Shown in pieces: positions 56,816-61,635 of a stretch of 64,000 bases of DNA. The DNA is from Streptomyces celluloflavus (lineage in GTDB: Bacteria > Actinomycetota > Actinomycetes > Streptomycetales > Streptomycetaceae): NCBI GenBank assembly GCA_000720995.1, contig JOEL01000026.1, positions 17,565 through 81,564 of the forward strand, read 5' to 3'. A model generated the notes under the pieces. The model worked only from the letters and a program-made list of their open reading frames with translations. It had not been told where the DNA came from and made no database searches. Both the position numbers and the translations under genes were made by a program. How positions within the stretch are numbered: position 1 is the stretch's first letter; each line of letters begins with the position of its first letter.

Positions 56816-56930
56816 GGCCGAAGGTCTCGCCCGCCCGCCCTCTCACCGAGTGCGGGCCCGGCCACCGGGAACCACGAGGGCTCCAGTGTGTCGACGACCG
56901 GTATTGCGGGGCTACTCCCCTTCGCAGCCT
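56816..56930 (-). ncRNA. yybP-ykoY (Mn2+-sensing) riboswitch
   Basis: On the minus strand: GCGAAGGGGAGTAGCC opens the aptamer (invariant GGGGAGUAG loop), GTCGTCGACA follows, and GGGCGAGACCTTCGG closes it (invariant GAGACCUU), with the CGAAGG/CCTTCG P1 pairing. This matches the yybP-ykoY consensus. A TTTTT run directly after P1 (GGCCCTTTTTG) hints at a terminator-type switch. It is about 105 nt ahead of the CaCA exchanger start. Confidence 0.85.
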
Positions 56931-57127
56931 CCCACCCTACAGGAGCCGGTGGGGACCGCCTTCGGCGTCCGGCGGGGGCGGTAGCGGGGGCCGCCGGTGG
57001 GGGAGCCATCGGGGGCGACGACTCGCCGGGGTGATCGGTGCGCACCTCGCCGGGCTCCTCGAAGCCTCTCCGGCCACGGCACTGACCCCGACCCGACCCG
57101 GCTGTCGACGGCACGTCGAGCCGACAT

Positions 57128-57456
57128 CTCATCCGCAGCCACCACTTCAAGAACGTCCTCGACGACAACGGCAACCAGGCCTCCGCCGACGAGGTGCGCG
57201 AGGTCCCCTGGGTTGCGATCAACGAACGCGTCCGCAAGAGGCCCAGCAGGTGCCCGAGACCGAGAAACGACTCCGCGCGACCGTCGCCAAGCTCAGGAAG
57301 ACCATCACGAACCAGAAGGCAGAGATCGACGAACTGCGCCGTCAGGTCACCACCCTCACCCTTGCCAGCGCGGTCCTCGTCCAAGGGCGGGACACATCGA
57401 CAGAACCGGCCCCGATTCCTGGCAACGTCGTGCCCCTCGCCCCACCGACTGCCTGA
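57128..57456 (+). pseudogene. Remnant of an integrase / DUF6262 mobile gene pair
   Basis: Two protein-like pieces in different frames. The first is about 57128-57240 and reads RSHHFKNVLDDNGNQASADEVREVPWVAINERVRK, resembling the C-terminal part of Tn554-like site-specific recombinases. The second, about 57255-57456, reads VPETEKRLRATVAKLRKTITNQKAEIDELRRQVTTLTLASAVL and ends PIPGNVVPLAPPTA, a coiled coil like DUF6262, the usual partner gene. The frame change and missing N-termini show decay. Sequence from 57457 to 57703 holds no gene. Confidence 0.5.
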
Positions 57457-57703
57457 GGTCTCAGTCCACGGAACCGCCCTGTCACCTCCCCCGCTTCGGG
57501 GACAGTTCCGACTCCGCATCCCGTGGCGTTTGAGGGATCCGGCGGTGATGCATTGCGCGGAGCCGAGATGGGATTCAGCCACCGTGTGGGCCCAGCGGAC
57601 GGGGCGAGTACTACGGCCATATCATCCTCAGTTACGTAGCAAACGGGGACCAGCAGGCTCATAAACGCTATGGGCTGAGCTGGTTGACACACAGGGGGTT
57701 GCC

Positions 57704-58123
57704 ATGTCGACGCCAGTTGAGCTTCTGGCAGCAGCGAGTGGTGCTGTTGCGGGAACGATGGGGAATGACCTTTATGGTTACGCGCGCCAGCGCGTCGTGG
57801 ATCTTTGGCGACATTGCAGGGGTGCAGGAGCCGACGGCGAAGCCGAAGTGCTGGCTCGGCTTGACACGTTGGAACAGGCGGTGGCGGCCATCGAACCTGA
57901 GCAGCGGGCTGCCATGGCCGGAGGCGTGCAGGTGCCGGTGCGGGAGATCCTCGCCGCCTGCGTTGGTGACGATCAGCCCGAAGCGCTGCAGGAACTCATC
58001 GATGCATTGGAAGCACGGGCTGCTGAGACTCCGGTGATCTCACACCAGACGGTGACAGGGAACCTCGTCCTCGGCGGCATCAATGTCGCAGGACGTGACA
58101 ACAACTTGGGGGGCGCTCGCTGA
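57704..58123 (+). CDS. Unknown protein 1 of a three-gene overlapping operon (VAGRDNN motif)
   Basis: 139 aa from ATG 57704 (AGGGGG 6 nt upstream). Not recognised. An Ala/Gly hydrophobic start (ELLAAASGAVAGTMGNDLYGYARQRVVDLW) could be a membrane-associating helix. A helical region with LDTLEQAVAAIEPEQRAA follows. The C-terminus reads VTGNLVLGGINVAGRDNN, which recurs almost unchanged at the N-terminus of the next protein, implying a shared assembly or docking strand. Codon use is less GC3-saturated than the core genes. Its stop overlaps the next ATG (TGATG). Confidence 0.75.
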   Translation: MSTPVELLAAASGAVAGTMGNDLYGYARQRVVDLWRHCRGAGADGEAEVLARLDTLEQAVAAIEPEQRAAMAGGVQVPVREILAACVGDDQPEALQELIDALEARAAETPVISHQTVTGNLVLGGINVAGRDNNLGGAR

Positions 58124-60198
58124 TGTCGTCGCCAACGCCGCCCCTGGACGAACCTACGGTGGAGAGGGACGTCAAGGGCAACGTCGTCCTTGGCGACCAG
58201 AACATCGCCGGCCGAGACAACAACATCACGAACTACCTGACCGGGCTGCGACACTTGCGGCCACACCCGGTAGACCCGGACAAGTTGATGCCGGCGAACC
58301 GCTTCGTCAGCCCTGGTGACAACTTCGCCAGAGCTGCGCAGGCCGTCCGACCGTCCTTCGGGAGCGCGGCGAACGTCCGCGTCGTGGTCCTGCTCGCTCC
58401 CGAGGAACACGGCCGCAAGTCGGCTGGGCTCCGGCTGCTGGCGGCCACGAATGTTGCGAGTGGTCGAGTATCTGAGCTGCTGCCAGACTGGGACGAACCG
58501 GACGTATCCTGCTTGCCGGAAGAGCGCGGCGTGGGTTATCTCCTCAACCTGCGCGGTGTCACTCAGCCTCTCCCTGACGCCTTCTACACCGACCTAGTGA
58601 TTTACGCGTCCGGGCTGCGTAAGACCGGCAGCTACATGGTCATCACAGCTACGAAGACCGTCTGGTCCCAGGCGCGAGCAGGCGGATCCCATCCTGAGAT
58701 TCTCGTGGCGGAGATCGAACGACCCAAGCCCGATGACGTCGTCAAGAGGTACTTGGAGGGTCACGAGAAAACGCAGGGTCGCTCCGACTGGATCGACAAC
58801 AAAGAAGGCGTGTTCTACGGCCTTCTGCCCGAAGACTGCGCACCTGGTGAAGCGGTTCGGCTGGCTTCGATTGTTGCGAAGGCCAAGAACGTCGAGGACA
58901 AGGACGCCCTCGATGAGTTTAAGGGCTGGGAAACCCGCCTGAGTGACTGGTTCAGCGGCGGCGAAGAAGGCGTGAGAACGCGAGCCGTCCGAATCGCGGG
59001 CGCCTACCTCGACAAGGCGCCCTCCACGGTGGTGCTGAGCAGCGCTGACCTTCTGCTCGCCGCGCCGAAGATTAACCTCCCCATGCCCAAGGGCGGGCTC
59101 CTTGCGATGCCAGACGCGCCGAGCCGACTCGAACCGGCAGGCATGTCCTTCGACGGAGCCACAAGCATCGCATCTCTCGTCCACGAGTCTCAAGGGCCTG
59201 CAATCCGGAGATATCTCTGGACTCAGCACACACAGTTGAGTCAAGAGGTGCTGACGCAGTGGCTTCAGGACATCAGTCAGGGCCCAGCCAAGGACCACCT
59301 CGATTCCCTTGCTTCCGCGCTGACGCAGCTAGCGGAGACGGTGGGTATCGCTCCCATCTTCGACCTCGCAGAGGGGTGGCTCCGCAATGGCGGTAAGCAG
59401 CACCTGGACCTTGTTGGAGATCTCCTCTCCGATCTCGCCGTACACGCCAATCTGGGAAGTCAGACAAGGGCCGAGTTGGCCAAATGGGCCGCAGGAAAGA
59501 AGGAGCCGGCACGCCAGCGCGCAGTCGCCCGAGCCTGCTCAGGTTCATTCGGGAAGAAATACCCCAGCCAAGCCCTGACTCGAGCACGCTACATCCTCAG
59601 CTCTCCCGGCTCTGAGGAAGCGCTGAAGGACGCCACCAAGGCCGTGCGCGTGCTGGCGTCTGACGGCGACCTTGCGCCTCTCGTGACCGACACAGTCGTC
59701 AAGTGGATCACGAACTCGGGCAAGTCGACTGGCACGGAACTGAGTGTCTTCTATGACGTCTTCGATGCGCCCTCAGGTGCCGATCAGTTGGAGAAGTCGC
59801 CTCTTGCGGTGGCGCTGGCACAGTCCGGTGAGGCGGGCGACGCGATGCGTCGGCGCCTGCTCGAAGGGTGGCAGCACGTCATCGGGCAAAGCGAGGATGT
59901 CTTCCATTCCCAGCAGACCTTGCTGAACTGGCGTCAGGGGGCCGAAAAGGGGCTTCTCCCGCAGGGCCCGGTCGTCGACATCATTATTGCGCTCGGTCGC
60001 GCCACCGGAATCGTCAACCCTCCGATCAGAGACGTCGTCAAGGAAGAAGGGCCGTTGAGGGACGCTCTGATTGTTGCCCTTTTCACCGAGGTCCAACGGA
60101 CTTACAGGACGGCGGACGGCCCACCTGTCGCGCCGTCCGGAAACGCGCCCGTAGCGCAGAGCCTGCAAGACGTGAATGAGGCGGATCCAAGAACATAA
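58123..60198 (+). CDS. Large unknown protein with degenerate P-loop (conflict/NTPase-like)
   Basis: 691 aa. Residues ~18-35 (GNVVLGDQNIAGRDNN) repeat the tag of the preceding protein. Then ANVRVVVLLAPEEHGRKSAGLRLLAATNV has the position and shape of a P-loop with GRKS retained but the first Gly lost, followed by GYLLNLRGVTQPLPDAFYTDLVIYASGLRKTGSYMVITAT, like strand-4/sensor segments of degenerate NACHT/AAA-type domains in actinobacteria. The C-terminal ~400 residues are helical, possibly repeats. No known effector domain is visible. It overlaps both neighbours by one base. A signalling or defence scaffold is a guess; the function is unknown. Confidence 0.72.
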   Translation: MSSPTPPLDEPTVERDVKGNVVLGDQNIAGRDNNITNYLTGLRHLRPHPVDPDKLMPANRFVSPGDNFARAAQAVRPSFGSAANVRVVVLLAPEEHGRKSAGLRLLAATNVASGRVSELLPDWDEPDVSCLPEERGVGYLLNLRGVTQPLPDAFYTDLVIYASGLRKTGSYMVITATKTVWSQARAGGSHPEILVAEIERPKPDDVVKRYLEGHEKTQGRSDWIDNKEGVFYGLLPEDCAPGEAVRLASIVAKAKNVEDKDALDEFKGWETRLSDWFSGGEEGVRTRAVRIAGAYLDKAPSTVVLSSADLLLAAPKINLPMPKGGLLAMPDAPSRLEPAGMSFDGATSIASLVHESQGPAIRRYLWTQHTQLSQEVLTQWLQDISQGPAKDHLDSLASALTQLAETVGIAPIFDLAEGWLRNGGKQHLDLVGDLLSDLAVHANLGSQTRAELAKWAAGKKEPARQRAVARACSGSFGKKYPSQALTRARYILSSPGSEEALKDATKAVRVLASDGDLAPLVTDTVVKWITNSGKSTGTELSVFYDVFDAPSGADQLEKSPLAVALAQSGEAGDAMRRRLLEGWQHVIGQSEDVFHSQQTLLNWRQGAEKGLLPQGPVVDIIIALGRATGIVNPPIRDVVKEEGPLRDALIVALFTEVQRTYRTADGPPVAPSGNAPVAQSLQDVNEADPRT

Positions 60199-60980
60199 TG
60201 ATTCGGATTCTCGACTGGCTGAAGGAGCGGCGGATCTCTGATCGCCGCTCCTTCTCCGCATCTCTAGAAAGCAAGGATCGCGGGCTGCACTATCGCGCTG
60301 TTATTCGCTATCGGTGGTGGCTGAATCATGACTCTCCAGCCCCTCGCCCTCTTGCCCCGGATGGAATGGCCCGTTACCTCCTCAGGGAAGAGTTGATGAG
60401 GGCGGCCCGCGCGTATCGAGTGCTGGATCGTGCTGCGGCAGAAGACGCCATGAACTCTAAGCTTGGCCAAGAGATTTCGGATCATGAGCAGCGACTCTGG
60501 GTGGTTGGACACGTCCGAATTCGAGTCCCCAAGCCGACGAGAGAGACGGCGCTGCGGCGAGCTGCAGAGGAAGAGGCTCTGCGGTCAGCTCATGCGCGGG
60601 AAACGGTTGAACTTGATCTGCTGCTCGACCGCCTCACGGATCCGGCGCTCGGCCCCGTCTGGTGGGTTCGCCGCTATGCCGATCTGCAGTTCGCGACCGG
60701 CGACCCCGAAACGAAGGTTAAGTCCGTTCTCAAGGCCTTCAAAGAGCTTCAGGAAACGCTCCATGTAGCGAGGATTGATCAGACATCAGATGAGAAGCTG
60801 CTCGTCCGTCGAAAGATCGAGGAAGTGTTCAGCATTATTGAAGACGAGGAGTCATTGTCGCTGGCACTCCAGGTTATGAACCGCACTCTGGACCATCTGG
60901 GAATGAACAGGCCGGAGGTAGGAGAGGTGGGGGAGGTCAGCAGAGTGCGGAATACTCAGGCTGGGCCGCCGCGAGCATAA
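60198..60980 (+). CDS. Unknown protein 3 of the operon (possible SPFH/coiled-coil type)
   Basis: 260 aa; ATG overlaps the previous stop (TAATG). The N-terminal half has a mixed beta region (RRSFSASLESKDRGLHYRAVIRYRWWLNHD) and a helical, oligomer-like segment (RYLLREELMRAARAYRVLDRAAAEDAMNSKLGQ). Then follow a charged helix TRETALRRAAEEEALRSAHARETVELDLLLDRLTDPALGPVWWVRRYAD and a C-terminal helix bundle. The beta-then-long-helix order recalls SPFH/band-7 proteins but the match is by impression only. No catalytic motif or transmembrane helix is seen. It completes the coupled three-gene unit. Confidence 0.65.
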   Translation: MIRILDWLKERRISDRRSFSASLESKDRGLHYRAVIRYRWWLNHDSPAPRPLAPDGMARYLLREELMRAARAYRVLDRAAAEDAMNSKLGQEISDHEQRLWVVGHVRIRVPKPTRETALRRAAEEEALRSAHARETVELDLLLDRLTDPALGPVWWVRRYADLQFATGDPETKVKSVLKAFKELQETLHVARIDQTSDEKLLVRRKIEEVFSIIEDEESLSLALQVMNRTLDHLGMNRPEVGEVGEVSRVRNTQAGPPRA

Positions 60981-61228
60981 CGGTCAGGTGACTTTCTGCG
61001 TAAGGAGTGAAGTGCGGCGCCGCGGAAGAATCCAGTCCGAAGCATCCACTTCCTCCTGGTACCGCGCATGGCGCGGCGTATGCGTCTGTGGACGTTGGAC
61101 AACCCTGGACTGACCTACTCGGCGGCACTGCAATGGGGGGTGCCTGGATCCGTGAGCGTGAACGGACGCGGGATTCTTACGGATGGATGTGGCGTTGAAG
61201 GGCATCACACTAGGTTCCTTCTTCTTGG
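60981..61228. other. Intergenic after the three-gene operon
   Basis: 248 bp with no supported gene or clear terminator. The right end (about 61200 onward) looks like the edge of the IS remnant. Confidence 0.35.
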
Positions 61229-61450
61229 TTAGCGCCGTGCCCAGGCGAGCATGGCGGCGAGGTGGCGTGCGGCCTGGTAGGCGATCGCGAGTTTGTCGAT
61301 GTGTACGGCCAAGCCTGGAACGGGCCGAGCTTGCCGGGCGGGACTCGCCCAGGGCGAGTTGGTGCCGTACTTCCGCATGATGGCCTTGAGCATGTGGCGG
61401 TGATCGGCCCACCGCTATCCCGCGAACCGGATCGGCCGGCATCAGCGGCT
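61229..61450 (-). mobile_element. IS5-family transposase remnant (C-terminal end)
   Basis: The minus-strand frame reads DHRHMLKAIMRKYGTNSPW (with frame breaks), then DKLAIAYQAARHLAAMLAWARR and stop TAA at 61229-61231. This is the characteristic C-terminus of streptomycete IS5-type transposases. The rest of the gene is missing and no inverted terminal repeats are evident, so the element is dead. Confidence 0.65.
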
Positions 61451-61635
61451 CGATTCAGTCCCGCATCACACCAGTGATCACTAATCGGGCAGGCGTATCC
61501 GATCAACTGATGAACCCGCTAAAAAGACACGCTCCAGTTCTGTCACGGATGGCGCCCATGGTCCGGCAACGCTGATCACGGAACTTGAGGCGCAAGGTGA
61601 GAATTTGAACGGAAGAACTTGATAGGGAACTCAAC

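Follow-up and report, generated by a model that had tools for sequence, protein, structure and literature searches.

Matching terminal tags in a three-gene Streptomyces operon and its relatives: a candidate modular anti-phage signalling system with an exchangeable effector

Introduction

What might three tightly linked genes without a recognizable family do in the accessory DNA of a Streptomyces genome? We examined this question for positions 57704-60980 of a 64,000-nucleotide stretch of Streptomyces celluloflavus DNA (the window, by which we mean that whole stretch), where the genes for three proteins, P1, P2 and P3, follow one another (Table 1). A sequence-only reading of this DNA had pointed to a short motif, here called the tag, shared by the C-terminus of P1 and the N-terminus of P2, and had suggested an undescribed defence or signalling assembly. 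Comparison with related loci leads us to propose, with a probability of roughly 60%, that the three genes make up a single unit of a modular, abortive-infection type of anti-phage signalling system in Streptomyces and relatives, in which P2 and P3 would sense infection, the tag would act as a template and P1 would be the effector. The evidence is the pairing of tags across the P2 family, the exchange of P1 for other proteins that keep a matching tag, and the immune-type character of those proteins.

Results

The tag pair in the window

The tag of P1 (GNLVLGGINVAGRDNN) and that of P2 (GNVVLGDQNIAGRDNN) are identical at 12 of 16 residues, whereas the best 16-residue window between the two proteins after shuffling reached at most 9 of 16 (300 shuffles). 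The tag of P2 is also picked up by itself in a tblastn search with P1 (E 0.002), and the near-identity first noticed in the sequence is borne out. A motif at the C-terminus of an effector that is repeated at the N-terminus of a receptor encoded by the adjacent gene is the arrangement of bacterial amyloid signalling sequence (BASS) pairs, and this arrangement was found both in the window and family-wide.

Two near-identical segments so close together might be a product of chance or of recent duplication without any function, and the copies do start 119 nt apart with 36 of 48 nucleotides identical. However, 6 of the 12 identical residues are encoded by different codons, which argues against a fresh duplication of DNA; distinct paired tags recur in most of the 13 P2 clades, and the permutation tests given below contradict such an artefact, so we regard it as extremely improbable.

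Tag pairing across the P2 family

The comparison rests on 60 of 77 further places with P2 relatives, the 17 left being the weakest or second pieces of genes already fetched. Together with L002 (whose P2 is 69% identical) and the window these make 62 loci, from which L040, L065, L067, L068 and L073 were dropped, leaving 57 for analysis. Genes in the relatives were called by a codon-score script and not by an annotation pipeline.

Over these 57 loci, tails of the upstream partner aligned to their own P2 N-terminus with a mean score of 50.4, as opposed to 29.2 for mismatched pairs, although some alignments in the L051-L062 and L077-L092 groups cross proline-rich linkers and their scores are partly due to low complexity. 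When each of the 13 P2 clades was represented by one locus, the means were 51.1 and 27.6, respectively, and none of 20,000 permutations did as well. An ungapped repeat with the last 45 tail residues, from which L056 and L064 were also left out for truncated or misread starts (55 loci), gave the same picture: in 100 random draws of clade members, each with 1000 permutations, the own value was never reached. Taken singly, 32 of the 57 loci scored above every one of 200 shuffled versions of their tail. The tags themselves vary by clade, and include GNVVLGDQNIAGRDNN in the window, VVQVGGD, NTNSQVVISGG, SFSHTGEHGIQAYN, SGSVIQVGRDN, GPVHTGSGHLY and QRVGQGNAIGGDV. Inside clades the own partner beat a foreign one in 188 of 322 comparisons, and therefore the code separates clades rather than single loci. 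Tag pairing is a trait of the P2 family. The idea that the shared motif is a functional link has gained considerably, in that matching tags recur over the family, covary in both partners and survive the exchange of partners.

The genome of the window offers a test within one cell, since it holds two more tag-paired loci with P2 relatives (L112 and L113 in Table 1). Tails and N-termini of the three loci score 73, 61 and 49 with their own partners and 19-36 with foreign ones. Shuffled sequences reached the own score in 0 of 1000 trials for L112 and in 5 of 1000 for L113, whose tag alignment, being long and gapped, makes it the least certain of the three loci. Contig C9 of the same genome has one more short match.

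The character of the tags was considered next to their pairing. N, G, Q and I are abundant in the 57 tails and L is scarce, and a RHIM-like core, [IVL]Q[IVL][GA], occurs in 8 of them, compared to a mean of 0.8 and a maximum of 4 after shuffling; L063 and L066 carry the core V/I-Q-V/I-G-x-x-N. The same receptor-effector module could instead be held together by tags that simply dock, pairing one to one or in a mixed sheet as short beta strands or loops, with no amyloid templating. The [IVL]Q[IVL][GA] core is missing from 49 of 57 tails and from 55 of 57 P2 N-termini, and tags that diverge between clades yet match within pairs are what any homotypic docking code would produce. However, the two sides are near-identical, as homotypic stacking predicts, and not complementary; the P1 tail is predicted to be disordered, and the composition of the tails and the L063/L066 core also point away from plain docking. 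In addition, the analogues of this gene layout that are described in PMC7889193 are amyloid motifs. We therefore think docking without templating somewhat unlikely, and amyloid signalling motifs offer a better analogy to the tag than a plain docking strand does.

Exchange of the upstream partner

The protein encoded upstream of P2 differs between loci. By sequence signature and by eye, the partners at the 57 loci were assigned to 26 class III cyclase-like proteins, 17 P1-like helical proteins, 7 of a second helical type (helical2), 5 TIR proteins, 1 fusion (L033) and 1 other. A profile of the P1-like domain, built with the tags removed, finds the L033 fusion (3e-28) and none of the 26 cyclase, 7 helical2 or 5 TIR partners, which are therefore true replacements. 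One supported P2 clade (100/99) mixes helical partners (L039 and L042) with cyclases (L036-L038, L041 and L043), and all of its loci bear tags of the QV[GAR] type. A maximum-likelihood tree of 55 P2 proteins requires four changes of label for the cyclases and four for the helical partners; the well-supported branches by themselves enforce at least two and three, respectively.

The exchanged partners are immune-type modules. TIR_2 was recognized in five proteins (best E 6.5e-12), and all five carry WxxxE. The cyclase partner profile matches the class III cyclase 3mr7 (1.7e-6), and the G-D of the cyclase GDG site is invariant in 19 aligned rows. In the TIR operons L070, L083, L087 and L089 the third gene still matches the P3 profile but is longer (357-443 amino acids (aa)), with hydrophobic N-terminal stretches; upstream there is a gene of about 400 aa (helix-turn-helix (HTH) domains by Pfam in L070). 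At L106:2330-3259, in Nonomuraea gerenzanensis, the gene 5' of the P2 relative encodes a 309 aa protein of another kind, with a modest tag match that 22 of 1000 shuffles equalled; a suspected resemblance to Cap4-type nucleases was left unconfirmed by a negative PDB search.

Is P1 then an effector? It might rather be an adaptor, or an antitoxin-like inhibitor that holds P2 and P3, with P2 or P3 as the toxic or acting protein. The L033 fusion (L033:4793-5917) is a 375 aa protein with a cyclase and a P1-like helical domain (residues 235-333) that ends in a tag, and a Crp gene lies upstream of it. A P1-like domain placed between cyclase and tag suggests that the helical domain can be a linker, and P3 is without an assigned function. 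However, the cyclase, helical2 and TIR partners fill the same place without any P1-like domain, and helical, cyclase and TIR proteins that replace one another suit an output slot. An adaptor or inhibitor is thus a quite unlikely role for P1, which is more likely an effector than a mere adaptor.

Genes beside the cyclases, and P3

Neighbouring genes were compared within three genes on either side. A Crp-type gene lies beside 24 of the 26 cyclase loci and beside the L033 fusion, and beside none of the 30 other loci (Fisher p 3.5e-14 for Crp versus cyclase, uncorrected for relatedness). Two representatives of this regulator contain a domain that binds cyclic nucleotide monophosphates (cNMP) by Pfam (2.9e-18 and 1.6e-18). 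By clustering, a two-helix membrane protein is encoded next to the Crp gene in 12 of the 26 cyclase loci; three representatives pass the cut-off of the PycTM family PF18967 (3.1e-18, 5.3e-8 and 1.1e-6), and the PADLOC PycTM models agree. Neither a Crp nor a PycTM-like gene was found among the neighbours of the 30 loci without a cyclase. The mark of Pycsar, a PycTM or PycTIR effector beside the cyclase, is thus present in sister operons, while the window operon has no PycTM and none of P1, P2 and P3 matches PycC. Outside Streptomyces, the Embleya locus L105 reads PycTM-like, Crp-like, cyclase, P2, P3 (the first two by similarity to Streptomyces genes; P3 profile 1.4e-45). Four clusters of neighbours recur in at least four loci, one of Crp, two of PycTM type and one with HTH domains; a ternary vWA-MoxR system, which was also considered, left no sign among them, and Pfam found no MoxR or vWA among eight window open reading frames (ORFs).

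The gene on the other side of P2 is nearly constant. A profile built from 26 P3 proteins matches 54 of the 55 genes directly 3' of P2, namely its own 26 members and 28 that were unused in building it (the window's entry in this list, WIN, is P0003). Overall, a P3-type gene is present in 52 of the 57 loci, including 4 of the 5 TIR loci, and the Nonomuraea locus also has one (2.4e-23). The survey of homologues supplied immune-type partners (TIR, and cyclases beside Crp and PycTM) and identified P3 as a conserved component. Since P2 is usually accompanied by P3, the latter would most plausibly act as a co-sensor or regulator.

Crp-type regulators and nucleotide cyclases are also at work in ordinary regulation, which favours a reading in which the family serves Streptomyces development or secondary metabolism through cNMP and Crp signalling, and not defence. 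The own-genome relative L112 adjoins acyl carrier and ketosynthase-like genes (named by eye), which would suit that reading as well. However, the PycTM and TIR partners, the patchy presence of the family (70 of 392 genomes) and its accessory setting with low G+C content at third codon positions (GC3) fit conflict systems better, and we consider a developmental or metabolic role improbable.

Family searches and predicted structure

All three proteins, whose genes the sequence-only reading had listed as of unknown function, lack a known family. Searches of Pfam, NCBIfam and PADLOC gave no significant match to P1, P2 or P3 (weak ones only, best E 0.015), and their profiles matched nothing below E 0.05 among PDB sequences. 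P2 had no Pfam match up to E 10, and no NACHT or NB-ARC domain of the signal transduction ATPases with numerous domains (STAND) was found in it that would make it a NOD-like receptor (NLR). A pair of effector-associated domains (EADs) was likewise not recognized by Pfam: P1 gave EAD2 at E 0.11, below the cut-off, and P2 gave none. Among 24 P2 relatives there were weak matches to nSTAND3 (3 members, best 9.2e-4) and nSTAND_NTPase5 (3 members, best 0.035) and single AAA matches. In 26 P3 proteins no Pfam family was found in more than two and no NCBIfam family in more than one (best E 0.0028). An SPFH/Band-7-like nature was considered for P3 and for the third L113 gene, without finding support.

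The P-loop-like segment reported for P2, APEEHGRKS, does align with the Walker A site of the family. The intact form, GxxxxGK[ST], which STAND proteins have, is absent from P2 of the window and present in only 1 of 24 aligned members (L048, GPPGTGKT); the site reads GRR[TI] in 14 of the 24 and GKR[TA] in the group L044-L047 plus L049. Given this erosion across the family, P2 looks like the descendant of a P-loop NTPase with a decayed nucleotide site, as judged from the alignment.

AlphaFold2 (AF2) predicts that residues 4-108 of P1 form a five-helix bundle and that the tail with the tag (110-136) is disordered; the best of five models had a mean predicted local distance difference test score (pLDDT) of 75.8 and the other four 44-49. 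A weak hit of the P1 fold to the coiled-coil domain of potato Rx (E 4.3) was not taken as evidence. The long helical C-terminus claimed for P2 is partly supported, as helices are predicted from about residue 240 on, but the model, made from two input sequences, has a mean pLDDT of only 41.8, and its quality did not suffice for a fold search.

Genomic setting and spread

The operon lies on contig C26 of the window's genome (G000:C26; 8.68 Mb in total). Its genes are linked, as first described, by stop/start overlaps at both junctions (TGATG and TAATG, each a 1-nt overlap), and their GC3 is indeed below that of other genes (P1 0.64, P2 0.74 and P3 0.63, compared to 0.92-0.95 in three neighbouring genes). 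The claim that mobile remnants flank the operon stands as far as repeated DNA is concerned: positions 61210-61540 match DNA of at least seven relatives, one of which (G007) has four copies, a repeat pattern that would be expected of an insertion-sequence remnant, and among the matches listed parts of 56816-57461 recur elsewhere in several relatives. However, the names IS5 and DUF6262 were not confirmed by Pfam in the eight window ORFs scanned. DNA resembling window positions 57086-57378, 5' of P1, occurs at G010:C2:2777308-2777468 and 2778527-2778663, about 1-2.3 kb from the P2 locus L051. Since window-like 5' DNA is also found beside L051, the P2 family may travel with the same mobile element.

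Table 1. Positions of the operon, its tags and the related loci of the same genome (window positions unless a contig is given)
Feature	Position	Strand	Description
P1	57704-58123	+	139 aa; proposed effector; ORF call
P2	58123-60198	+	691 aa; tag at the N-terminus, degenerate P-loop NTPase-like domain and helical C-terminal region; proposed sensor/scaffold
P3	60198-60980	+	260 aa; conserved third component; no known family
Effector-side tag GNLVLGGINVAGRDNN	58058-58105	+	C-terminus of P1
Receptor-side tag GNVVLGDQNIAGRDNN	58177-58224	+	N-terminus of P2
Degenerate Walker A APEEHGRKS	58396-58422	+	P2 residues 92-100; family alignment
L112	G000:C7:147000-155500		Crp-like, cyclase-like, P2, 327 aa gene, two-helix membrane protein; names by similarity
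L113	G000:C60:45500-52500		Crp-like, cyclase-like, P2, 357 aa gene; names by similarity

Relatives of P2 were found in 70 of 392 Streptomyces genomes, the window's own included. In a set of 396 genomes from across the phylum (two candidates scored per genome, among the matches listed) they were found in two, the window's own and one of the same genus, and therefore we claim no wide spread across the phylum. By tblastn, 12 records of a plasmid collection contain P2 relatives, including Embleya and Nonomuraea, and no phage record matches P2. Six of the 25 P2 loci on contigs longer than 5 Mb lie within 1% of a contig end, and 10 lie in the outer 15% of either side where 7.5 are expected, so that the excess is limited to the very ends.

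Discussion

Taken as a working model, the operon would function as follows. P2, with its eroded P-loop NTPase and helical region, would sense a cue of infection together with its usual partner P3 and assemble. With its N-terminal tag exposed, P2 would then bind P1 and template the tag at the P1 C-terminus, the likeliest mechanism being an amyloid-like beta stacking of the BASS kind. Clustering would switch on P1, whose helical bundle probably damages the cell, by membrane action if the analogy with BELL and HeLo domains holds. In sister operons the same receptor-tag unit would drive a nucleotide cyclase, with the adjacent Crp regulator and often PycTM as output, and in others a TIR domain, clusters of which would consume NAD.

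Several results weigh against this model. PADLOC recognized none of P1, P2 and P3 (best E 0.015), a Foldseek search of the PDB with the P1 model gave no significant match (best E 0.37), and the maximum Kyte-Doolittle hydropathy of P1 over 19 residues (KD19) is 1.29, so the bundle has no strongly hydrophobic helix. There is no clear tag pair in the helical2 clade (7 loci; own 25.6 vs. foreign 22.4) or in the L077 clade (10 loci; 29.8 vs. 24.4); at L035, L039 and L052 the pairing is weak, with 15-26 of 200 shuffles doing as well, as it is at L089 in the ungapped test (30 shuffles doing as well), and for Embleya and Nonomuraea it is modest (equalled by 23 and 22 of 1000 shuffles, respectively). 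The RHIM-like core is present in only 2 of 57 P2 N-termini. P3 was not matched in 5 of the 57 loci, nor in L112 and L113, and the L033 fusion would also suit an adaptor role of the P1-like domain. Lastly, PADLOC PycC models matched none of the four sister cyclases tested, which are therefore Pycsar-like by neighbourhood only.

The undescribed assembly with motif-mediated hetero-oligomerisation that was suggested at the outset has therefore fared well in outline, given recurring and covarying tags and partners of immune type, but two of its parts needed revision: P1 is the likelier effector and not an adaptor, and the tag compares better with an amyloid motif than with a docking strand.

The closest known systems are BASS pairs, for which the 2020 work of Dyrka is said to be the main study. 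As described in PMC7889193, a small helical (BELL) or TIR effector bears the BASS motif C-terminally and the next protein repeats it at the N-terminus, the genes being adjacent or overlapping, and the motifs treated there and in PMC8086366 are NLR-associated with BELL, TIR or CHAT partners. To judge from these accounts, the present family shares with them the gene layout, the effector C-terminal motif repeated at the receptor N-terminus, the many motif families and the Streptomyces hosts, and some P1-like proteins may already have been counted among BASS pairs. It differs in that neither a NACHT nor an NB-ARC family is matched by P2, whose P-loop is eroded, that P3 is usual, and that the partners include cyclases beside Crp and PycTM; the amyloid nature of the tags here is putative. 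L063, L066 and the tails of the QVG-tag clade bear V/I/L-Q-V-G cores reminiscent of RHIM, PP and BASS3 motifs (a resemblance to the consensus only), whereas the window tag reads V-V-L-G-D-Q-N and lacks the core Q.

Pycsar, of which PycTM is a membrane effector according to PMC11224242, resembles the sister operons with a class III cyclase, where a PycTM-like gene is present in 12 of 26. However, these cyclases adjoin the P2/P3 unit and a Crp regulator, and four are unmatched by PycC models as mentioned above; the window operon has neither cyclase nor PycTM and, having no cyclase, is not Pycsar. The EAD-coupled and inactive STAND systems (iSTAND, iSTAND2), as far as PMC7159879 and PMC8195603 describe them, likewise have matching small domains on an adjacent receptor and effector, an inactive NTPase as proposed sensor, cyclase or TIR partners and actinobacterial hosts. 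In the present family, by contrast, the link is a short tag in a predicted-disordered tail with no significant match to a folded EAD, and no MoxR-vWA pair is among the recurring neighbours. We thus file the operon among tag-paired effector systems; its receptor (P2) and its third subunit (P3) are both unannotated, and it works like a BASS pair without an NLR receptor. No earlier description of such a system was found in the open-licence literature.

A further-reaching proposal, which we hold only tentatively, is that P2 and P3 make up an undescribed class of immune receptor other than NLRs. Its tags would be homotypic and amyloid-like, its clade-specific codes would prevent cross-talk within one cell, and it would be the missing infection sensor of Pycsar-like cyclases, TIR proteins and helical killers.

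The review of amyloid signalling in PMC7889193 asks whether NLR-independent bacterial pathways use signalling amyloids, and the Pycsar paper, in what it says on this point, only proposes how the cyclase is activated on infection (PMC11224242). The P2/P3 family bears on both the question of NLR-independent amyloids and that of Pycsar cyclase activation. It also supplies naturally matched tag pairs, between which an exchange of tags should rewire the effectors, and the three loci in one strain provide a direct setting for the study of insulation between tag codes.

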